The position numbers and the translations under genes were made by a program. Shown piece by piece: positions 22,116 to 59,406 of a stretch of 64,000 nt of DNA (within the stretch, counting starts at the first letter, position 1; each line of letters starts with the position of its first letter). Source of the DNA: Bacilli bacterium (lineage in GTDB: Bacteria > Bacillota_I > Bacilli_A > RFN20 > CAG-826); assembly GCA_017651165.1 (NCBI GenBank), contig JAGCDH010000023.1:1-64000 (forward strand). The letters run 5' to 3'. The notes below the pieces were generated by a model. That model did no database searches, was not told the origin of the DNA, and saw only the letters and a list, made by a program, of their open reading frames with translations.

Positions 22116-22216
22116 CAAAAATTTTTAATTCATAGAATTAAGAAAAAAAGTTTCTCAAAAAATGCAAGTTTTTTGGACAAATTTCAATTTCCTTGTCTAT
22201 TGGTTAAGTAAGGAGG
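22116..22216 (+). repeat. Conserved upstream element, copy A (before comEA)
   Basis: First copy of an approximately 100-bp block also present at 45524-45627. It has a CAAAAATTTTT tract, a perfect palindrome TTAATTC-ATA-GAATTAA (22125-22141), a 19-nt variable part, then a 50-nt segment (22161-22210) that differs from copy B only at 22193-22194. Within it TTGGAC (22173-22178) and TCTATT (22196-22201) are 17 nt apart and could be a promoter for a start at about 22208, just before AAGGAGG. The same segment can be read as a short peptide from ATG 22162 that stops at the comEA start codon. Confidence 0.85.
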
Positions 22217-22223
22217 CTTTTTT

Positions 22224-22760
22224 ATGATAAAGATCTTAATCGGTGTTGTCGTGGCTGCTTTTGTGGTCATTATGGGTTTCATGATTATCGACCCAGATTT
22301 AAGCGGCAACAAAAACAACTCAATTGTCGAAATGGTCGACAATTCTGGCAATAAGTACACCATTGAAGGGGAAGTTAAAAAAGCTGGTACATATGTCCTT
22401 ACGGATAACATTACCATGCTTGATTTGATTTCCGCCGCCGGTGGAACAAGCGCCAATGCAGATGACCTAGCGTATTTTGATGAAGCACCATTAAAGAGTG
22501 GTTCTTCATATTACATCGCATGTAAATACGACGAGACAGATATCTGCTCCAAAAACGAAATCACTAAGGTCAACATCAATGAAGATGATGCGGCGACTTT
22601 GATGACAGTCAACGGCATTACCACATCCATTGCGAGTTCTATTGTTTCGTATCGAACTGAAAACGGCATCTTTGATACCGTGGAAGAACTCATGGAAGTT
22701 TATGGTATCGGCAATGCGACCTATCACAAAATCCGTAACTACGTCATTTTGCATTCGTGA
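22224..22760 (+). CDS. comEA: ComEA-like DNA receptor for competence
   Basis: A 178-residue membrane-anchored DNA-binding protein that captures double-stranded DNA outside the membrane during natural transformation. It has one N-terminal transmembrane helix (about residues 4-24), an SLBB domain (YTIEGEVKKAGTYVL... about 45-100) and a C-terminal helix-hairpin-helix pair (VNINEDDAATLMTVNGI, EELMEVYGIG). It starts 7 nt after AAGGAGG. Its stop overlaps the comEC start by 4 nt (GTGA). The conserved element before it is shared with the C39 peptidase gene at 45635. Confidence 0.92.
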   Translation: MIKILIGVVVAAFVVIMGFMIIDPDLSGNKNNSIVEMVDNSGNKYTIEGEVKKAGTYVLTDNITMLDLISAAGGTSANADDLAYFDEAPLKSGSSYYIACKYDETDICSKNEITKVNINEDDAATLMTVNGITTSIASSIVSYRTENGIFDTVEELMEVYGIGNATYHKIRNYVILHS

Positions 22761-24766
22761 TTCTCTTATTAATCTTTCTTTCTTGTTGGTTAGGTTTGGC
22801 TTTGTCTAGCGCTTATTTAGCGCTGTCGATAGTGGCGGTAGTCTTTCTCCTCTTTGTCTTGAAAAGATTCAAAGTCAAAACGTTTATTCTTTGTGCAACC
22901 TTTTTCACTTTAAGTTTCCCTATCTCTTTTATCCATTTATCGTTCAATCACACGCTTTTCAAAGGCTTTGTCTATCAATGCAAGGAAAACTATTTTCTCT
23001 TTAACAGTGGAGGGGAAAGACTATACGTCAAATGTCAAAACCACACCTATGATATTGGTGATTATTTATCAATAGAAGGCAAAAAAGAAGATTTATCTTT
23101 TACGAGAATCGAATCATCATTTGATTTTGAAGATTATCTTCATAAACGTGGTGTTTTTAAATCACTGGTGATTAAAAGCGTCACAGTGAAATTTCATAAT
23201 CCTATTCGCATCCATAGTCGAAGAGAAAAACTCTTAGCAAATTTTAATAACGAGACAAGAAGCATCATCGGAGCGATTCTATTTTCTGAGAGTGATGATA
23301 GTGAGCTAAACACTAATATTAGAAACTTACACTTAGCGAGATTCTTATCTGCAAGTGGTATCTTCATACACGTGTTTTTTCTCTTTTTCAGTCATTTCCT
23401 TTCTAGATATATGAAGGATAAATATTCCGAATTGATATCGATCGGAATACTAAGTTTCTATGTCATCTTCACTTTCCCGAGATTTAGCGTCATGAAGGTG
23501 ATGCTCTTTCTTATTATTAAATGGATAAATACTTATGTTTTAAATAAGAAGTTTTCCTACCTAACGTTATTATCAGGTTTAGGATTATTTTGCTTGCTTT
23601 TAAATCCATATTTAGCGAGACAAGATAGCTTTATACTCGGATTTTTGATTCCACTTATTAGTTACTTAACCCGCTATATCTTTAGAAAACATAAGATCAA
23701 GCGTTGGTTTACAAAATACTTAATTATCTATCTCTTTTTCATACCTTTTGAAATATCCTATTACAATAAAATTGTAATTTTATCATTGCCATTGCAGATT
23801 TTGTTGACGCCATTATTTATGCTAATTGCGGTTATTTCATTATTATGTTTCTTTTATGTACCGCTTTATCCAGTTGTTACATTTTTAGTTAATATCTTAA
23901 AAGGGATAACTGGCTTTTTATCGCCATTATCTTTTGGGATTAATATGCCCACTTTTAATCAGATACTGATGGTGATATATTTCTCTATTTATTTATTGTG
24001 GCTGATTTATCTATCGAAAGGTTTTGTACCAATCCATAGATTCTTATTAACCGCGATGACTAGCCTATTAGTTCTCTATGCATTACCTATTAAAAATACA
24101 ATATCAAATGAGGTTAACTTTATTAATGTCGGTCAAGGCGATTGTACACTCATTAGAAATCACAATAAAGTAGTGCTTATTGATACAGGCGGGCTTACAT
24201 ATATGGACGTCGCTAATGACTCGTTAGTGCCGTTTCTCAGGAAGAAAAGAATCTATAAAATCGACGCTGTGATAATTACTCATTATGATTACGACCATTA
24301 TGGAGCGCTTTCCTCATTAGCGAAGTCCTATCCTGTCAAATCAGTTTATGACTATAACAGTGTTTTCCCGGTTACTATTGGTAACCTGACTTTTAATAAC
24401 TATAACTATTACGCTAATACGAGCGAAGAGAACGATAAATCATTAGTGATTAGTTTTACTAATTGTAAGAAAGATTTCGTCATTATGGGTGACGCTCCTA
24501 GTTATATAGAAAAAGAAATCATCAAGCATGTAGATAGTATCAAATGCGATGTCTTAAAAGTGGGCCATCATGGATCAAATACATCTACATCAGAAGAATG
24601 GCTCAAATATCTATCACCAAGCGAGGCTATTGTTTCATGCGGCAAAAACAATAAATTTGGTCACCCAAATAAAGAGGTCGTGTCTTTATTAAATAAATAC
24701 AAAATCAAAATACATCGTACTGATTTAGAGGGGACAATTGTTTATAAACAATTATTCAGTATTTAA
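22757..24766 (+). CDS. comEC: ComEC DNA uptake channel
   Basis: A 669-residue polytopic protein that passes single-stranded DNA across the membrane. After an N-terminal OB-like extracellular segment comes the Competence domain with many hydrophobic helices (about residues 160-450), then a C-terminal metallo-beta-lactamase domain (VNFINVGQGDCTLI, THYDYDHYGA, KVGHHGSNTSTS), which may be the nuclease that degrades the non-transported strand. The metal-binding motif looks complete. The GTG start overlaps the comEA stop by 4 nt, so translation is coupled. Intact comEA and comEC argue for functional DNA uptake. Confidence 0.94.
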   Translation: MILLLIFLSCWLGLALSSAYLALSIVAVVFLLFVLKRFKVKTFILCATFFTLSFPISFIHLSFNHTLFKGFVYQCKENYFLFNSGGERLYVKCQNHTYDIGDYLSIEGKKEDLSFTRIESSFDFEDYLHKRGVFKSLVIKSVTVKFHNPIRIHSRREKLLANFNNETRSIIGAILFSESDDSELNTNIRNLHLARFLSASGIFIHVFFLFFSHFLSRYMKDKYSELISIGILSFYVIFTFPRFSVMKVMLFLIIKWINTYVLNKKFSYLTLLSGLGLFCLLLNPYLARQDSFILGFLIPLISYLTRYIFRKHKIKRWFTKYLIIYLFFIPFEISYYNKIVILSLPLQILLTPLFMLIAVISLLCFFYVPLYPVVTFLVNILKGITGFLSPLSFGINMPTFNQILMVIYFSIYLLWLIYLSKGFVPIHRFLLTAMTSLLVLYALPIKNTISNEVNFINVGQGDCTLIRNHNKVVLIDTGGLTYMDVANDSLVPFLRKKRIYKIDAVIITHYDYDHYGALSSLAKSYPVKSVYDYNSVFPVTIGNLTFNNYNYYANTSEENDKSLVISFTNCKKDFVIMGDAPSYIEKEIIKHVDSIKCDVLKVGHHGSNTSTSEEWLKYLSPSEAIVSCGKNNKFGHPNKEVVSLLNKYKIKIHRTDLEGTIVYKQLFSI

Positions 24767-40780: not shown

Positions 40781-41827
40781 ATGGCTCTTAACCGCAGTGA
40801 TACAATCCTTAAATACATCGTTGAATATTTCATCAAGAAAGCGCAACCAGTCGGTAGCCATACTCTTATTGAAGAGTACAAGCTTCCATATAGCTCCGCA
40901 ACTATCCGTAATGAGATGTTTGCCTTAGAGAAGATGGGCTATATCGAAAAGACCCATTCATCTAGTGGTAGAGTTCCTTCTGCCGCGGGCTATCGTTATT
41001 ACTGTGAAAAATTAAGAGATGGTGGTGTTAACGAAGAATTGAAGAATAGGATTCAAGTCGTTCTCGATAACAAAGTCAAATCCATTGAAGAAGTCATTAA
41101 AGCCTCTTGTGAGATTTTATCTCATATGACTAACTTAGTGACCGTTGTCATGGGTCCAGATGAAAAAGAAGAGAAGTTAGCGTCCATCCAAATGGTGCAA
41201 ATCTCCCAAAATACGATTACCGCGATCTTCGTGACTGATAAGGGTTATGTGGAAAACAAAACCTTCATCGTTCCAGAAAACTTAAACGCGGATGAAATCG
41301 TCAGTTGTGTCAATCTCTTAAATGAGAGATTAAAAGGCACTCCAATCGTGAATCTCGTCGAAAAGACCGAAGCCTTAAAACCAGTCTTAAGCGAATATAT
41401 CGTCGATCATGACTTAGTGTACCAAGCTTTGCTTGAAACATTCGTGAGATTCGCTAGTGATAGATTATCACTCTATGGAAGAGACGAACTCTTCTCTAGA
41501 GAGGAATATAAAAACGACGCTAAAAAGTTAGAGCAAGTATTTAAATTATTAAGCGATCAACAACTTCTTAAAGAAGTTAATAAAGAGATTAAGGAAGAAA
41601 AAGATGGCCGTATCATCCGTATCGGTGACATCGAAGGTAATCCTGATGTCTCAATGGTCAGTGCGAAAATCGACTTAGGTGAAGAAGGCGATAGAGCCAT
41701 TACGCTTCTTGGTCCAACAAGAATTGACTATGACCAAGCCTTAAGTGCCTTAGAGTATATCGCCAAAACCTTAACCGATTACTTTAATGACTTAAACGGA
41801 AGTAAAGGAGGTAAAGGTGATGCCTAA
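40781..41827 (+). CDS. hrcA: Heat-inducible transcription repressor HrcA
   Basis: A 348-residue repressor of chaperone genes that needs GroEL for activity. It has an N-terminal winged helix (SDTILKYIVEYFIKKAQPVG, SSATIRNEM, THSSSGRVPS) and the GAF-like core with an inserted dimerisation domain (NLVTVVMGPD, VGEEGD-type loop). It begins behind AAAGGAG and is the first gene of hrcA-grpE-dnaK-dnaJ, controlled by the two CIRCE sites just upstream, so it is autoregulated. It overlaps grpE by 8 nt. Confidence 0.96.
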   Translation: MALNRSDTILKYIVEYFIKKAQPVGSHTLIEEYKLPYSSATIRNEMFALEKMGYIEKTHSSSGRVPSAAGYRYYCEKLRDGGVNEELKNRIQVVLDNKVKSIEEVIKASCEILSHMTNLVTVVMGPDEKEEKLASIQMVQISQNTITAIFVTDKGYVENKTFIVPENLNADEIVSCVNLLNERLKGTPIVNLVEKTEALKPVLSEYIVDHDLVYQALLETFVRFASDRLSLYGRDELFSREEYKNDAKKLEQVFKLLSDQQLLKEVNKEIKEEKDGRIIRIGDIEGNPDVSMVSAKIDLGEEGDRAITLLGPTRIDYDQALSALEYIAKTLTDYFNDLNGSKGGKGDA

Positions 41828-42380
41828 AGACAAAGAAGAACTCAAAGAAAAAAAGTCTAAAGAAGAGAAAAAGATTAAAGAGCTCGAAGAACAACTCGAA
41901 AAAGCAAAAGCGGACGTTGATCATTGGAAGAATGAATATTATCGAGCCTACGCAGACACAAAAAATCTACGTAACAACTTAGAAAAAGAACATTCAGATA
42001 TTATTAAATATCGCGCTATGGGATTTATCGAAGATTTACTTCCAGTACTCGATAGCTTCCATATGGCATTAGCCAATGAGCCAACAAGCCAAGAACTTAA
42101 GAACTACTTAGTGGGTTTCCAATTCGTTTATCGAAACCTGGTGAGTGTCCTTGAAAACGAAGGGGTCAAAGAAATCGCCCCAAATATCGGAGATAAGTTC
42201 TCTGATAAAACGATGAACGCGGTGGATGTCACCGAACAAGAAGGTGAAGAAAACCTCGTGACCAAAGTCTACGCGAAGGGATATGAATTACATGGTCGAC
42301 TCATTAGACCAGCACAAGTATCCGTGAGCAAAAACAAAAAAGAAGAAAAATCACAAGAAAGCGTCAAAGCAGACGCTTAA
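41820..42380 (+). CDS. grpE: Nucleotide exchange factor GrpE
   Basis: A 186-residue DnaK co-chaperone that promotes ADP release. A highly charged coiled coil (residues 1-60) precedes the helical and beta-wing region (FIEDLLPVLDSFHMAL, AKGYELHGRLIRPAQVSVS). ATG 41820 follows AAAGGAGG by 8 nt; a GTG lies directly before it but is less likely. It overlaps hrcA by 8 nt and precedes dnaK by 16 nt. Confidence 0.95.
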   Translation: MPKDKEELKEKKSKEEKKIKELEEQLEKAKADVDHWKNEYYRAYADTKNLRNNLEKEHSDIIKYRAMGFIEDLLPVLDSFHMALANEPTSQELKNYLVGFQFVYRNLVSVLENEGVKEIAPNIGDKFSDKTMNAVDVTEQEGEENLVTKVYAKGYELHGRLIRPAQVSVSKNKKEEKSQESVKADA

Positions 42381-42393
42381 TAGGAGGATATAA

Positions 42394-44220
<1,827 letters not shown>

Positions 44221-44242
44221 TTATTAATTAAACAACATTTGA

Positions 44243-44274
44243 GACTGTTGGGGACCTCGTGTCCCCTTCACGTC
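44243..44274 (+). other. Hairpin between dnaK and dnaJ
   Basis: GGGGAC (44250-44255) pairs with GTCCCC (44261-44266) over a 5-nt loop, extended by AGAC/GTCT outside. There is no T run, so it is more likely an RNA-stability or processing element than a full terminator; it would lower dnaJ output or protect the dnaK 3' end. Confidence 0.65.
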
Positions 44275-44294
44275 TATGAATAGAAAGGATCATC

Positions 44295-45428
44295 ATGGCG
44301 GAAAAGAAAGATCTATACGAAACACTAGGTGTTAATAAAAAAGCATCTAAAGATGAAATCAAAAGTGCCTATCGTAAACTCGCTAAAAAGTATCACCCAG
44401 ACAATCATGAGACGGGTAATGCTGAGAAGTTTAAGGAAGTGCAAGAAGCTTATGATATCCTTTACGATGACCAAAAAAGAAGCGCTTATGACCAATTCGG
44501 CTTTGCCGCGTTTGAACAAGGGGCTGGCCAACCAGGCGGGAATCCATTTGAAGGTGGCTTCGGCTTTGGTGGCGATGGTGGCGTCGATTTAGGCGACATC
44601 TTCTCCCAATTCTTTGGCGGTGGTAGACGCGCCCAAAGAAGCAAAGCGGGTCCAAGAAGGGGCGATGATGCAATTATTCGTGTCAAAGTTGATTTCATGG
44701 ACACCATCAATGGTCGCGATATTGAAATTCCTCTCACCGTGGATGAACCATGCAAAGCATGTGGTGGTACAGGAGCGAAAACTCCTAACGATATTAAGAC
44801 ATGTCCAAACTGTAATGGTCAAGGCTATGTCAGAACCGCCAGAAGAAGTCTCTTTGGCATGGTCGAACAACAAGAAGAATGTATGCGTTGTTCTGGTCGT
44901 GGCAAGATTATTTCAGCGCCATGTCCGTCCTGTGGTGGTAAAGGTTATAACAGAGTTAAAAAGAACATTAAGGTTCATATTATCGCTGGTATCAATAACG
45001 GCCAACAAATCCGTGTCCAAGGCATGGGCGAAAGGGGCGCCAATGGTGGTCCTAACGGCGATTTATTCGTCGAAGTGAATGTCAAACCACATCAATATTT
45101 CAAAAGAGATGGTAACGATATTCACTTAAATGTCCCAATCGACTTTGTCGATGCTATCTTAGGCACAAGCGTGGATGTTCCGACAGTTTATGGAGAAGCC
45201 ACTCTCAATATCCCAGCGGGAACACAGCCTGGCCAAATCTTCAGAATGAAAGGCCAAGGTGTCAAAGACTTAAGAAGTGGTCGTCCTGGTGATCAATATA
45301 TCCATTTGGATATCAAGATGCCAACATCCTTAAGCAAAGAACAAAAAGACTTGCTTAATAAGTATCGTGATAGTTCAAAGAAAGACGATTCCTTATTAGC
45401 TAAGTTCAAAAGAATGTTTAAAAAGTAA
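44295..45428 (+). CDS. dnaJ: Chaperone DnaJ (Hsp40, type I)
   Basis: A 377-residue DnaK co-chaperone. The J domain carries the HPD tripeptide (KKYHPDNHE), then a Gly/Phe-rich region (about 75-110), four zinc-binding CXXCXGXG repeats (CKACGGTG, CPNCNGQG, CMRCSGRG, CPSCGGKG) and the C-terminal substrate-binding domains. It starts behind GAAAGGATC. A hairpin separates it from dnaK and a terminator follows. Confidence 0.98.
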   Translation: MAEKKDLYETLGVNKKASKDEIKSAYRKLAKKYHPDNHETGNAEKFKEVQEAYDILYDDQKRSAYDQFGFAAFEQGAGQPGGNPFEGGFGFGGDGGVDLGDIFSQFFGGGRRAQRSKAGPRRGDDAIIRVKVDFMDTINGRDIEIPLTVDEPCKACGGTGAKTPNDIKTCPNCNGQGYVRTARRSLFGMVEQQEECMRCSGRGKIISAPCPSCGGKGYNRVKKNIKVHIIAGINNGQQIRVQGMGERGANGGPNGDLFVEVNVKPHQYFKRDGNDIHLNVPIDFVDAILGTSVDVPTVYGEATLNIPAGTQPGQIFRMKGQGVKDLRSGRPGDQYIHLDIKMPTSLSKEQKDLLNKYRDSSKKDDSLLAKFKRMFKK

Positions 45429-45523: not shown

Positions 45524-45627
45524 CAAAAATTTTTTAATTCAAAGAATTAATGGAAAAACCAAAACAAAAAAATGCAAGTTTTTTGGACAAATTTCAATTT
45601 CCACGTCTATTGGTTAAGTAGAGGAGG
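45524..45627 (+). repeat. Conserved upstream element, copy B (before the C39 peptidase gene)
   Basis: Second copy of the element at 22116-22216. The palindrome is TTAATTC-AAA-GAATTAA (45534-45550), then 20 variable nt, then the 50-nt segment 45571-45620, identical to copy A except 45603-45604 (AC instead of TT). TTGGAC (45583-45588) and TCTATT (45606-45611) are again 17 nt apart. A GAGGAGG ribosome site follows. Read from ATG 45572 the segment is in frame with the downstream gene. Confidence 0.85.
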
Positions 45628-45634
45628 TGCAAAA

Positions 45635-46846
45635 ATGTACTATATCCCACAAGTGACAAAGAGCGGTTGCGGTTTTACGTGTTTGAAGATGCTTTTGGCA
45701 ATCGCCCACAATGATGAAAAGTATCTCTATTTAAAGGAAGACGAGTTCCATCAGTCTTATTCGTATCAAGACCTCGTGGAGATTGCCCAGCGTTTTGATG
45801 TGACTCTCGTTGGTGCTAAATACCCCGATAAGAGCGATTTAAGACACTTTACGAATTTTCCCCTAATCTTAACCGTCGAGAGGGAAAATCAAAGTCCACA
45901 CGCCGTTTTAGCGGTCAAAAGAAAAGGAAACTTAATCAAGATTCAGGATCCCGCGAAAGGAGTTTATTGGCAAAAGATCGATAAATTCATTCAAGAATGG
46001 GATTCGACGGTTTTAGCCATTAGCCATCTCGAAGCCAGGCCATTTACTTTACGGCAAGTTGATGCAAAAGATAGGAAAGGAGAAGTGGTTTCCTACATCT
46101 TGCAGACATGCGCTGCGATATTTATTGCTGTAGCAATATTCTTTGTGAAGCCTAATGGTTCCTTCTTTTTGCCTTTGCTTTTCTGTGCGCTTAGCCTAAT
46201 GTGCGAAGTCATTCTTAGGACGATGTTACTAAAACGCATGCAAAAGTATGATCGTTATTTAAGAAGATTTCTTCCCTATGTGCATCGAAAAGACTATTAC
46301 GACTTTTATAAACGTGGACAAGAATACAAAGTCAGCGCTTTAACGACAGGGCTTAACTTCATCTTTTACTTTTTGGTCGTCACTTTAATCGTGACCATCT
46401 CACTCATTAACTCTTTGAGTTATGGAGTTTCCATTATCGTTGCGTTTCTTTCAGCCTTTATTAATGCATTAGTCTTAAACCCCTTTAAGAAGACCGCGGA
46501 TAAAGAATTAAGAGAACAAGAAAACGAACTTCATAAAGTCAAAGAACAAACTGAGATGGAATTGAAGGTTAAAAGTTTAGAGGTGAAGTCTTATCGTTAT
46601 GCCTACTATATGTTCGCTAGTAAAGTGGTGGTTGGGGCTTTCTTCCTTTTAGCGAGCTTTCTCGTCTGTAAACTGCAGAATTCATTCGCCATTACCAACA
46701 TTGTCTTTTACACTTGTGTGAGTTTTTTAATCTACCAGTACTTGGTGCCATTATTTTCCTACGATCAAAAAGTCAGTGAGAATATGGTTAACAAAGCGAG
46801 AATTAACAATCTCGTTCATCAAAATGATGAAATTAATAGCAAATGA
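45635..46846 (+). CDS. Membrane-bound C39 family cysteine peptidase lacking the ABC ATPase
   Basis: A 403-residue protein. Residues 1-130 are a C39 peptidase: oxyanion Gln 6, nucleophile Cys 12 in SGCGFTCLKM, His 89 in SPHAVLAV and Asp 105 in IQDPAKG. C39 domains cut double-glycine leader peptides in bacteriocin and pheromone exporters. Six hydrophobic segments follow (about 141-160, 167-185, 241-257, 264-280, 331-345, 352-374), as in an ABC exporter membrane domain, but the protein then stops and has no Walker motifs. It starts behind GAGGAGG. The same upstream element precedes comEA, so a competence or peptide-signalling role is inferred. No substrate peptide or separate ATPase is recognisable nearby. 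Confidence 0.8.
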   Translation: MYYIPQVTKSGCGFTCLKMLLAIAHNDEKYLYLKEDEFHQSYSYQDLVEIAQRFDVTLVGAKYPDKSDLRHFTNFPLILTVERENQSPHAVLAVKRKGNLIKIQDPAKGVYWQKIDKFIQEWDSTVLAISHLEARPFTLRQVDAKDRKGEVVSYILQTCAAIFIAVAIFFVKPNGSFFLPLLFCALSLMCEVILRTMLLKRMQKYDRYLRRFLPYVHRKDYYDFYKRGQEYKVSALTTGLNFIFYFLVVTLIVTISLINSLSYGVSIIVAFLSAFINALVLNPFKKTADKELREQENELHKVKEQTEMELKVKSLEVKSYRYAYYMFASKVVVGAFFLLASFLVCKLQNSFAITNIVFYTCVSFLIYQYLVPLFSYDQKVSENMVNKARINNLVHQNDEINSK

Positions 46847-46865: not shown

Positions 46866-46871
46866 TTGCCT

Positions 46872-47315
46872 ATGGAACTAGATTTTAATGCGTTTGATGA
46901 ATCGTTAAACGATTACGAACAGATATATCTTTCGTTGCTAGAAAAAACCTTAAAGCATTTGTCTTTAAACTTTGATCCATATATCAGCGTCACAATCGTA
47001 AACAACGATTACATCCATGAAATCAATCGCACATACCGTCATAAGGACGCCCCTACGGATGTGATATCATTCGCATTCTTAGATGATAATCCAGATCGGG
47101 ATGCTTTATTCCATTCTGGTAAAATGGTGGTCCTTGGTGAAATCTATATTTCTTCTGATAAGGCTAAAGAACAGGCAGTGGCCTATGGCCATAGTCTTGA
47201 AAGAGAACTTAAATTCCTCTTTGTTCATGGCTTACTACATTTACTTGGTTACGACCATATGAAAGAAGAAGATGAAAAAGTGATGTTCCGTTTGCAAGAC
47301 GAAATCTTAGCGTGA
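46872..47315 (+). CDS. ybeY: Endoribonuclease YbeY (rRNA maturation factor)
   Basis: A 147-residue zinc-dependent RNase involved in 16S rRNA 3'-end maturation and ribosome quality control. The metal motif HGLLHLLGYDH (HX3HX5H) lies near the C-terminus, and RHKDAPTDVISFAF in the middle is conserved. ATG 46872 was chosen over a TTG six bases earlier. It heads a tight ybeY-cdd-era-recO unit; the ybeY-cdd-era order is typical of Bacilli. Confidence 0.95.
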   Translation: MELDFNAFDESLNDYEQIYLSLLEKTLKHLSLNFDPYISVTIVNNDYIHEINRTYRHKDAPTDVISFAFLDDNPDRDALFHSGKMVVLGEIYISSDKAKEQAVAYGHSLERELKFLFVHGLLHLLGYDHMKEEDEKVMFRLQDEILA

Positions 47316-47323
47316 GGTCAAAT

Positions 47324-47728
47324 ATGAATCCTAATCAATTAATCGAAAAAGCTCTCGAAGCGAGAAAACTATCCTATAGCCCTTATTCCAATTTCCAAGT
47401 TGGAGCGGCCTTACTTTGTAAGGATGGAAGTGTGTTTGTCGGCACAAACGTAGAGAATTCTTCCTACCCACTTTGTATGTGCGCTGAGCGTAATGCTTTA
47501 TATAACGCGATGATGAACGGCTATAAGAAAAGTGACTTCTTAGCGTTAGCGATTGTCGCTGACACCGATGAACCATGTTCACCATGCGGAGCTTGTCGTC
47601 AAGTGATTAGTGAATTATTCCCAAAAGAAGGAAAGATTTATCTTTCTAATCTTAAAGGGGCTTTGAAAGAGACTAATATTGAAGAGTTATTACCATTCGC
47701 ATTTTCTGGAGAAGATTTAGGTAAATGA
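47324..47728 (+). CDS. cdd: Cytidine deaminase
   Basis: A 134-residue zinc enzyme converting cytidine or deoxycytidine to uridine or deoxyuridine. The catalytic CAERNAL motif (Cys ligand and Glu) and the PCGACRQ motif with two Cys ligands mark the tetrameric Gram-positive type. ATG 47324 with GAGG upstream is preferred; a GTG at 47312, overlapping the ybeY stop, is possible. Its product can be used by the pyrimidine nucleoside phosphorylase at 14407. It overlaps era by 4 nt. Confidence 0.95.
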   Translation: MNPNQLIEKALEARKLSYSPYSNFQVGAALLCKDGSVFVGTNVENSSYPLCMCAERNALYNAMMNGYKKSDFLALAIVADTDEPCSPCGACRQVISELFPKEGKIYLSNLKGALKETNIEELLPFAFSGEDLGK

Positions 47729-48609
47729 AATCCGGATTTGTCGCGATCTTGGGTCGCCCTAATGTTGGTAAATCAACCATCATTAATCGCATTGTTAAAC
47801 ACCATGTTTCCATCGTGACAGAAAAGTCACAAACCACGAGGAATAATATTATTGGCATTTATAATGCCAAAGATACACAAATCGTCTTTTTGGATACCCC
47901 AGGAATCCATAAGCCTAAACAACAATTAGGTAAGGAAATGAACAATATGGCTTATAGTGCCGCCCATGACGTGGACGTCGCCTTATTAGTCGTTGATGCT
48001 TCTAAACCTTTTGGGTTAGGGGATCAATTTATCGTTGATCATCTCGATATCCACAAAACACCATTAATTGTTGTTTTCAACAAAATCGATTTAGCGCGAT
48101 TAGATGAAACAGAAGAATTAAAAGCCACGTATCGCGAGATTTTCCCAAAAGCAAACTTTATTGATACAGTGGGGCTTGATGGTTTCAACATTGATGAATT
48201 AATCAAAAGAATAGTGAACCTTTTGCCAGAAGGACCAGCCTATTATCCAGTGGAAATGATTACTGATAAAGATGAAATCTTTCAGATTAAGGAAATTATT
48301 AGAGAGAAGATTTTAAAGCAACTTAGAGAAGAAGTTCCTCATTCCATCGCTATTTTTATTGACCATATCGAATGGGAACATAAGCCATTACAGATTTTTG
48401 CTTCAATCATCGTTGAAAAAGAAAGTCAAAAAGCGATCGTCATTGGCGCAGGTGGCCGCATGATTAAAGAAATCGGCTCCAGAGCCCGTGTTGACATCGA
48501 ACGTTTGCTGAATAAACATATCTTCTTAGAACTCCAAGTCAAAGTAGTGCCAGATTGGCGCAACGAGCCGAAGGCTCTTAAAACTTATGGATATAAGTAC
48601 GAAAAATAA
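47725..48609 (+). CDS. era: GTPase Era
   Basis: A 294-residue GTPase that binds the 3' end of 16S rRNA during 30S assembly. G1 is GRPNVGKST, G3 is DTPGIHKP, G4 is NKID, and the C-terminal KH domain includes VIGAGGRMIKEIGSRARVDI. The start overlaps the cdd stop by 4 nt (ATGA). It works in the same process as ybeY two genes upstream. Confidence 0.97.
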   Translation: MKSGFVAILGRPNVGKSTIINRIVKHHVSIVTEKSQTTRNNIIGIYNAKDTQIVFLDTPGIHKPKQQLGKEMNNMAYSAAHDVDVALLVVDASKPFGLGDQFIVDHLDIHKTPLIVVFNKIDLARLDETEELKATYREIFPKANFIDTVGLDGFNIDELIKRIVNLLPEGPAYYPVEMITDKDEIFQIKEIIREKILKQLREEVPHSIAIFIDHIEWEHKPLQIFASIIVEKESQKAIVIGAGGRMIKEIGSRARVDIERLLNKHIFLELQVKVVPDWRNEPKALKTYGYKYEK

Positions 48610-48611
48610 TC

Positions 48612-49322
48612 ATGCAAGTAATTATTTTATCGATTAGCACATATAAGGAAAAAGACGCTGTGATATCAGCCATTTCCGAAAATGAATTCATTACTTTTTT
48701 AGCGCGCGGTATTAATGGACCAAAAAGTAAAAACTTGGCCATCAATAACGCTTTAACCATCGCTGACATCGAACTCATGGATGGTAATTTTAAATATCCA
48801 GTCCTCAAGAGTTCAAAACAACTATTTACGCCTATGCGTCTAGAAATGGACTCGAAATATCTTGGGTCATTATTATTAATGAACGAGATTACGAACTATC
48901 TATTTCCTGACGAAGAAAAGCCCAAACTATTCAAAGCATTAGGGGAAGGGATTACACTTCTTAAAAAGAAGAATGATTGGCTCATGACCCTTTTACTCTT
49001 TTTTGCGACCGCCATCAGGGAAGGTGGCTTTGAGCTCGAAGTCAATAAATGTGTCCGTTGTGAAGGAAAAAACCGTATCGTGGCGTTCTCTTTTGAAGAA
49101 GGTGGCTTTATTTGTGAGAAGTGTGTTGACGAGGAAGTGAACCGCGACTTAACGAAGAATCAGATGATCTTACTACGTAAAATATTTAACGCTCGTGACT
49201 TTGCCCTCCTCGATACTGATTACGATAAAGAAGATGCGGAAGTTCTTCTTAGAAGATTAATCTCTTTTATGGAAGAAGCCTTTGGCTACCACTTTAAAAA
49301 TCTGCGTTTGATTTTAGACTAG
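48612..49322 (+). CDS. recO: DNA repair protein RecO
   Basis: A 236-residue recombination mediator that helps RecA replace SSB. An N-terminal OB fold (residues 1-80) is followed by a helical domain and a zinc-binding CVRC...CEKC motif (about residues 148-179). It starts 2 nt after era. The era-recO-glyS order is common in Bacilli. Confidence 0.9.
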   Translation: MQVIILSISTYKEKDAVISAISENEFITFLARGINGPKSKNLAINNALTIADIELMDGNFKYPVLKSSKQLFTPMRLEMDSKYLGSLLLMNEITNYLFPDEEKPKLFKALGEGITLLKKKNDWLMTLLLFFATAIREGGFELEVNKCVRCEGKNRIVAFSFEEGGFICEKCVDEEVNRDLTKNQMILLRKIFNARDFALLDTDYDKEDAEVLLRRLISFMEEAFGYHFKNLRLILD

Positions 49323-58145: not shown

Positions 58146-58151
58146 GTGCCT

Positions 58152-58784
58152 ATGATTAAAGTTATCCCGTTCATATACGATAGTTATGATGACTTATACG
58201 CTAATACGTATCTTTTAGTTGACGAATCAAACCAATGCGTGGTTATCGATCCTGCTAAAGCTTATGACGGATTAGTCAATTACATTAAAAAGAACAATCT
58301 GACTCTCAAAGGAATTCTTATCACACATGGACATGCCGACCATATCAGAGGCATTGACTCTTTAGTGAACGCTTTTAACGTCCCTACATATATCGGCTAC
58401 GAAGATTTAGATAAACTCACTAATTCTTATTCTAACTGCAGTGAGTTTTTAGGCGAAAAAGTCATTATTAACGCTAAAGCTCAAGCGGTGGGAGATACCG
58501 CTATCTTGCGCTTATTAGACGAAGATATCCGTGTCATTTACACGCCATATCACACCTCTGGTAGTGTCTGCTACTATCTAAAAGATAGTGATATCTTGTT
58601 TACTGGTGATTTCATCATTCCACACGGTATTGGAAGATGTGACTTACCAACCGCCAAACCAAAAGAATTAGAAAACTCTATGAAGAAGATTTTAGACTTG
58701 CCAAGAAGCGTTAAAATCTATGGGGGTCATGAAAGACCTTCAACTTTAGAAACCGAGATTAGAGTTAATCAATACGTCAAATAA
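58152..58784 (+). CDS. Metallo-beta-lactamase-fold hydrolase (glyoxalase II-like)
   Basis: A 210-residue hydrolase with intact metal motifs: ITHGHADHIRG (HXHXDH), the later His in YTPYHTSGSVCYY, the bridging Asp in LFTGDFI, and the last His in GGHERPS. Proteins of this size are often annotated hydroxyacylglutathione hydrolase, but thioesterase or other activity is equally possible. ATG 58152 lies very close to the terminator of rpmG and has no Shine-Dalgarno. Confidence 0.88.
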   Translation: MIKVIPFIYDSYDDLYANTYLLVDESNQCVVIDPAKAYDGLVNYIKKNNLTLKGILITHGHADHIRGIDSLVNAFNVPTYIGYEDLDKLTNSYSNCSEFLGEKVIINAKAQAVGDTAILRLLDEDIRVIYTPYHTSGSVCYYLKDSDILFTGDFIIPHGIGRCDLPTAKPKELENSMKKILDLPRSVKIYGGHERPSTLETEIRVNQYVK

Positions 58785-58785
58785 T

Positions 58786-58817
58786 TTGTCAAATAATGAA
58801 TATTTGATATAATATTC
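58786..58817 (+). promoter_or_regulatory. efp promoter with overlapping palindrome
   Basis: TTGTCA (58786-58791), 16-nt spacer, TATAAT (58808-58813). A perfect 7-bp inverted repeat GAATATT-N6-AATATTC (58798-58817) covers the -10 box and could be an operator. Confidence 0.7.
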
Positions 58818-58848
58818 AAGGAAATTTATTGAAAGGAAATAAATATTT

Positions 58849-59406
58849 ATGGTTAACGTAACAGAATTAAGACCAGGCAACTATTTCATTGATGAAAACA
58901 ATCTTTATCAAGTTATGGACATCTTACTCAATAAAACAGCGATGAGAAAGATGGTCGCTAAGGTCAAAGTCAAAAACGTGCGTACAGGCACAATTAATGA
59001 AATCGCTCGTAACTCTGGTTACATGGTGGAAAACGTTCGTCTTGATAAAAGACAAATGCAATACCTCTACGATAGTGGCGATTTCTTAGTATTCATGGAT
59101 CAAGAAACTTATGATCAAGTGGAAATTCCAGTTGAACGTCTCCAATGGGAAAAACAATTCCTTAAAGGCGACGAAGTCGTGGAAATTACTTCCTACGAAG
59201 GCGAAATCCTTGGTGTTAACTTACCAGCGAAGGTCGCTCTTAAAATTACACAATGTGATCCAGGTGTCAGAGGTGACACAGTCAACAAACCAACCAAACC
59301 AGCCACATTAGAAACCGGTTTAGTGGTGAGAGTGCCATTATTCATCGAAGAAGGCGAAGAAGTCTTAGTTCGCACCGATACAGGCGAATACGACGGTAGA
59401 GCCTAA
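58849..59406 (+). CDS. efp: Elongation factor P with mycoplasma-type loop
   Basis: A 185-residue, three-domain translation factor that relieves stalling at polyproline. It aligns without gaps to Bacillus EF-P over the tip loop, but the modifiable Lys in KPGKG is replaced: the loop reads NKTAMRKM, with Met where Bacillus has the modified Lys and Arg beside it. Hence the usual lysine modification cannot occur at that position. The remainder (MQYLYDSGDFLVFMD, GVRGDT) is typical. It has its own promoter, and the yneF-like gene follows 14 nt later. Confidence 0.95.
   Translation: MVNVTELRPGNYFIDENNLYQVMDILLNKTAMRKMVAKVKVKNVRTGTINEIARNSGYMVENVRLDKRQMQYLYDSGDFLVFMDQETYDQVEIPVERLQWEKQFLKGDEVVEITSYEGEILGVNLPAKVALKITQCDPGVRGDTVNKPTKPATLETGLVVRVPLFIEEGEEVLVRTDTGEYDGRA

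Follow-up and report, generated by a model that had tools for sequence, protein, structure and literature searches.

A recurring promoter-like element before DNA-uptake and recombination genes in an uncultured gut Bacilli bacterium

The window, that is, the whole stretch of 64,000 nucleotides analysed (GCA_017651165.1, contig JAGCDH010000023.1, positions 1 to 64,000), comes from a metagenome assembly of an uncultured gut bacterium with a genome of 1.14 Mb, 79% complete. Two distant genes, comEA and a gene for a C39 peptidase, are preceded by nearly the same block. The relevant features are the following.

22125..22141, forward strand: palindrome TTAATTC-N3-GAATTAA, candidate activator/operator site, centre about 42 bp upstream of GGAC
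22171..22205, forward strand: core element copy 1, with T tract, -35-like TTGGACAAA, -10-like TCTATT (22196-22201) and GGTT; exact match to the 16-member genome set, 0 expected by chance
22210..22216, forward strand: ribosome site AAGGAGG of comEA, from sequence
22224..22760, forward strand: comEA, with SLBB and helix-hairpin-helix (Pfam HHH_3 8.6e-19 and SLBB; TIGR01259 1.8e-17; TIGR00426 above cut-off); proposed regulon member
22757..24766, forward strand: comEC, in operon with comEA (TIGR00361 1.1e-55, 189.0 bits against a cut-off of 190.05)
45534..45550, forward strand: palindrome TTAATTC-N3-GAATTAA, with spacing equal to that of the copy at 22125..22141
45581..45615, forward strand: core element copy 2, -10-like TCTATT at 45606-45611
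45621..45627, forward strand: ribosome site GAGGAGG of the C39 gene, from sequence
45635..46846, forward strand: C39 peptidase domain and membrane region (PF03412 1.2e-14), no ATPase domain; proposed regulon member
46866..49322, forward strand: ybeY-cdd-era-recO, following the C39 gene in the same direction
58146..59406, forward strand: metallo-beta-lactamase-fold gene (58146-58784), then efp (58849-59406), with 64 bp between

The first-pass annotation of this DNA had described a block at 22116-22216 that recurs at 45524-45627, built in both places from a tract, a palindrome, a segment with two adjacent differences and a ribosome site. Both copies were found at these positions with this architecture; the repeat finder reports a direct repeat of 54 nt (22157-22210 and 45567-45620), with 52 identical positions (96%) and two adjacent bases, TT vs AC, as the sole differences. 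The CAAAAATTTTT tract, the TTGGAC-N17-TCTATT pair and the ribosome site are present in both copies, followed by ATG at 22224 (comEA) and at 45635 (C39 gene). The palindromes are exact (TTAATTCATAGAATTAA at 22125-22141, TTAATTCAAAGAATTAA at 45534-45550), with 0.13 expected in the window by chance at one mismatch or fewer and no shuffle reaching 2. For the 35-nt core, the window contains 2 matches at up to 3 mismatches vs 0.00 expected. No RNA family was found at the gathering threshold in an Rfam scan of the window. Inspection by eye spoke against a hairpin at the ribosome site.

The genes hrcA-grpE-dnaK-dnaJ (40781-45428, named by gene order) seem to precede the C39 gene, so that the element would separate a heat-shock operon from ybeY-era-recO. 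Judging by the spacing, the C39 gene and ybeY-cdd-era-recO are possibly served by one promoter.

In terms of the whole genome, the pattern TTTTGGACAAATTT-N11-TCTATTGGTT is present in 16 copies, with 0 matches for the reversed control. Under a looser pattern, 12 of these sites have 0-1 mismatches, 4 have 2 and none has 3; the long version of the core has 4 copies. The T tract with GGACAAA is invariant at 16/16 sites, as is ATTGGTT, and the distance to an ATG with a good ribosome site is 17-21 nt at most of them. The unit that recurs throughout the genome is the 35-nt core with the ribosome site, without the rest of the 100 bp.

A regulon reaching beyond the two window genes had been proposed, with comG, comFA, dprA and recA as the genes to look for. 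The search of the genome bears this out, the 16 copies standing before nearly all DNA-uptake and recombination genes. Both dprA (PF02481 2.8e-61) and recA (TIGR02012 6.9e-159) carry a site as predicted, and so does the gene of a ComFA-like helicase, which has four cysteines in its start and a ComFC-like ORF after it (the two names rest on architecture only, as no ComFA model matched). The expected comG pilus is not among the members; the element instead precedes a Tad-like pilus operon, whose first gene is MPN403-like. Other sites precede comEA-comEC, the C39 gene and the gene of a 60-aa membrane peptide whose 3' end overlaps the start of radC, and one lies about 400 nt upstream of rpsF-ssb-rpsR. 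Given 6 independently placed late-competence units, and assuming 400-600 units in the genome, the chance of finding all 6 among the 16 is approximately 1e-9 to 1e-10.

The remaining sites precede genes for a MacB-like ABC transporter, two ORF6N proteins (the domain comes from a scan of one, to which the second is paralogous in sequence), small basic proteins, an LPD3-domain protein, a Nudix/NOV_C protein and, about 260 nt away, an esterase-like SASA lipoprotein. Copies before unrelated genes, which the first-pass annotation had named as evidence against its reading, thus exist beside the competence set: around half of the 16 sites front genes without a known competence role.

Some sites show additional features. 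At four of them on contigs 7 and 8 (L114, L123, L124, L126), the ribosome site has no start codon after it and lies in a possible hairpin, e.g. GAGGGAC-T run-CCCTC; another ribosome site with its start codon comes 44-51 nt or more downstream. On contig 23, two elements stand in series (L127 and L120), the first ahead of a 189-aa LPD3-domain gene and the second ahead of dprA; it looks as if the LPD3 gene was inserted upstream of dprA along with its own copy. In the own species and in relatives, the element is repeatedly followed by, or close to, genes for small basic proteins of 107-145 aa (L113, L121, L107:2733-3065); the two scanned have no Pfam or NCBIfam match. The MacB-like transporter gene (L116, L110:3718-5826) has the element in several species.

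This gene set would also suit a recombination or DNA-stress regulon similar to that of Mycoplasma genitalium sigma-20, induced by DNA damage and not by a competence signal, with uptake genes as one part. Its members would be recA, radC, dprA, ssb and possibly recO; sigma-20 controls recA and ruvAB (PMC9262362), and the first gene of the pilus operon belongs to the mycoplasma MG284/MPN403 family. However, DNA entry is the task of comEA-comEC, the comFA-like gene and the pilus operon, none of which is known to act in repair, and neither ruvAB nor other classical damage genes are among the 16 sites. We regard a DNA-stress regulon as rather unlikely.

Next, the element was followed in same-genus genomes, where it is present in a diverged form, approximately TTTnGGACAAA-N15-CCTATT. 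Conservation in sister genomes, which the first-pass annotation had left to be checked, is observed at comEA (15/15 printed upstream regions, with the sixteenth recovered by script), dprA (13/13), the C39 gene (14/14) and the pilus operon (13/13). A near-exact search for the own-species version in 95 relatives gave nothing outside genome G000; the relatives carry diverged versions. A pattern scan of the genus shows that other species, too, have sites before the genes for the 60-aa peptide, the ABC transporter and small basic proteins.

The copies also vary together by genome, with dialects common to the copies of one genome, e.g. AGGAAAA in G004, CCGATTAGTAA in G013 and CCTACT in G003 and G005. 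Identity between the copies of different genes is 79% within a genome vs 62% between genomes, and 76% vs 58% when near relatives are thinned, with 0/5000 permutations as large in both cases. This co-drift would fit one shared trans-acting factor; gene conversion, which copies one site onto another, could also cause the likeness within a genome. Old promoters that decay independently do not drift together by genome; sites under a shared reader, or copied from one another, do.

These observations also bear on whether the copies are ordinary housekeeping sigma-A promoters, alike by common descent or as a spreading repeat. TGGACA has 5 of the 6 bases of TTGACA, the copies within the own genome are unusually alike, and some stand before ORF6N and other apparently mobile genes. 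On the contrary, the -10 region (TCTATT, CCTATT, CCGATT, CCTACT) does not fit TATAAT, some relatives have AGGAAAAA in place of the TTGACA-like sequence, the copies drift together by genome while staying at the same genes, and no match to the element was found in plasmid and phage records. Taken together, this makes an origin as sigma-A promoters quite improbable.

The 51 copies extracted all measure 27 nt from GGAC to the last base of the -10-like motif; they are a selected set, as the pattern used admitted 27 or 28 nt and nothing else, and three copies of G013 measure 26 nt. In two species, the element lies 300-400 nt upstream of rpsF, a position open to a promoter and not to a translation signal. 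It is therefore very hard to credit a translation-level element, in which a CC-rich stretch would pair with the ribosome site and hide it until a signal: CCTAT or CCTCCTA upstream can indeed pair with ATAGG or TAGGAGG at the ribosome site in several genomes, but by eye many copies do not have the pairing (comEA of G000, comEA of G002 and all of G013), and a -35-like part with steady spacing would have no use.

In terms of the palindrome, only 3 of the 16 sites of the own genome have it. At comEA it is limited to the own species, and at the C39 gene to the own species and G013. Pilus-operon promoters have it more regularly: a script found an exact copy at 9 of the 12 measured, and G004 adds one more seen by eye. 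Wherever measured, its centre falls 41.5-43 bp upstream of GGAC, and more distant relatives (L144, L145) have TTAATC-N3-GATTAA in similar surroundings. With its fixed geometry the palindrome resembles an activator site; it is accessory to the core and mainly tied to the pilus operon. Of the dedicated promoter plus operator first proposed for the block, the promoter fits the spacing, the distance to the ribosome site and the position 300-400 nt before rpsF, and the palindrome falls back to an accessory part.

We consider it likely that the element is the promoter of a competence regulon, for DNA uptake and recombination, with a single trans-acting reader. Gene content and co-drift together show that the original finding was right and larger than stated, with one competence-type regulon that has its own promoter-like element. 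A single activity, whether a sigma factor of an unusual kind or RNA polymerase helped by an activator, would read the -35-like GGACAAA and the -10-like TCTATT or CCTATT, which stand at near-constant spacing. It would switch on jointly the ComEA receptor, the ComEC channel, the ComFA-like helicase, DprA, RecA, RadC and probably Ssb, along with a Tad-type pilus in the place of ComG and the C39 membrane protease, and cells would then take up DNA. At the pilus operon, and in the own species also at comEA and the C39 gene, we infer that a second factor binds the palindrome approximately 42 bp upstream. For Bacilli of gut and rumen that have not been cultured, this offers a competence regulon open to testing; the open papers searched gave none.

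As for the factor that reads the element, RpoD is the one protein to pass the cut-off of a sigma region-2 scan in G009, G010 and the 95%-complete G002 and G013. G002 and G013 carry elements with no detectable sigma factor except RpoD, so the element does not require an ECF sigma. Beyond RpoD, a single sigma was found in the own genome, an ECF gene on contig 5 (L130:3220-5237), rejected as the regulator: its own upstream region has no element, and two near-complete relatives have no ECF sigma. The 495-aa product of the neighbouring gene is a possible anti-sigma factor to it.

What makes the MPN403-like protein a candidate reader is the place of its gene, first in an operon behind the element. 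Its structure model (pLDDT 89) has sigma-28 as the four best Foldseek matches, at E 0.33 or worse. HHalign of the family vs RpoD and ECF profiles gave nothing, a sequence search for solved structures gave no match, and nothing relevant was found in the literature on MPN403/MG284. As the reader, this weakly sigma-like protein is a candidate only slightly less probable than a divergent sigma that escaped detection or RpoD with an activator, these two being about equally probable. For the MG284/MPN403 family, shared with mycoplasmas and with no known function in the sources searched, the operon offers a first functional context.

The pilus operon itself is Tad-like. A scan for the T2SSE ATPase gave a single match above the cut-off in 13/16 genomes and 0 in three incomplete ones; no genome of the 16 has a second above it. 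In 10 genomes this ATPase is encoded about 2 kb downstream of the MPN403-like gene, on one contig with it. It is closest to the TadA/CpaF/VirB11/FlaI types (best NCBIfam match TIGR03819, 3.2e-33, below the curated cut-off; CpaF structures 3e-17). Two adjacent membrane proteins of 220-245 aa are candidates for the short T2SSF platform proteins TadB and TadC. The TadC-like model (pLDDT 68) has OutF/EpsF/PilC T2SSF domains as best matches, insignificant at E 0.37, and the T2SSF profile gave one match at 0.018. The A24 prepilin peptidase (TadV) is above the cut-off in 0/16 genomes, with the same search positive in 12/14 control genomes. After a 113-aa gene comes a 47-58-aa peptide starting MSEIKGQLLG, without the Flp G/XXXXEY site, which could be a pilin without a leader. 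MAGs under the names Erysipelotrichaceae, Bacillales and Coprobacillus have the same gene order.

The comG locus of Bulleidia extructa is flanked by a beta-lactamase-like gene and efp (PMC12786226). This comG site of related Erysipelotrichales is empty in the window, with only 64 bp between the metallo-beta-lactamase-fold gene and efp, and from this one comparison comG may have been lost at that spot. The Tad-type pilus seems to have replaced the usual ComG DNA-uptake pilus. In Bacillota, which as a rule use the ComG pilus, the shared control links DNA uptake to a pilus of the Tad type.

The C39 gene had been described as peptide-exporter-like. As in C39 ABC exporters of the ComA type, a C39 domain adjoins a membrane region, and its catalytic residues Q6, C12, H89 and D105 are invariant in 13 genus members. 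Unlike those exporters, the 403-aa protein has no ATP-binding domain in Pfam or NCBIfam scans, and it is therefore better read as a membrane protease than as a streptococcal-type exporter. One guess is that it cleaves the 60-aa peptide. The start of this peptide, LLSKEEMQNHYVG|EAITV in relatives, has a vague likeness to a double-glycine leader, and the peptide has a weak, sub-threshold match to a DNA-delivery membrane protein of phage PRD1.

Joined into one novel machine, comG would be lost, with a Tad-type pilus of small pilins working without an A24 peptidase; the C39 protease would mature the 60-aa peptide as a pilin-like or signal peptide; and the MPN403-like protein would be a small sigma-like factor that reads the set and controls its own operon through the element. 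That all of this holds together is unlikely.

Among known systems, the ComX/SigX regulon of Streptococcus and Lactococcus places one short promoter element before comEA-EC, comFA, dprA, recA, radC and ssb-type genes. The arrangement here is alike, one short element before a matching gene set, and differs in that the pilus genes are Tad-like and not comG and that only RpoD was detected in two 95%-complete genomes. The cin-box consensus TACGAATA is found at -10 in 0/16 sites by inspection. ComK boxes are paired AAAA-N5-TTTT; by inspection of the 16 sites, AAAAAATGCAAGTTTTTT has N6 and is missing at most of them. The SigH consensus is AGGAWWT/GAAT, which the diverged AGGAAAA and CGATT forms resemble. 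In Staphylococcus aureus and Lactobacillus sakei, the alternative sigma SigH governs com genes (PMC3486894, PMC3364868), while here the spacing and -10 of the own species differ and no sigH-type gene was detected.

Mycoplasma genitalium, a genome-reduced relative within Bacillota, likewise has recA under a dedicated factor, sigma-20 (MG428; PMC9262362), with a different gene set. Lastly, Micrococcus luteus has a TadV peptidase and a Flp processing site, while here no A24 peptidase was found among the 16 genomes and a 49-aa pilin-like peptide has no evident leader. Its transformation is Tad/Flp-dependent, with the Tad pilus as the only type IV filament, together with ComEA and ComEC (PMC4322843), and this combination of a sole Tad pilus with ComEA/ComEC is the one seen here.
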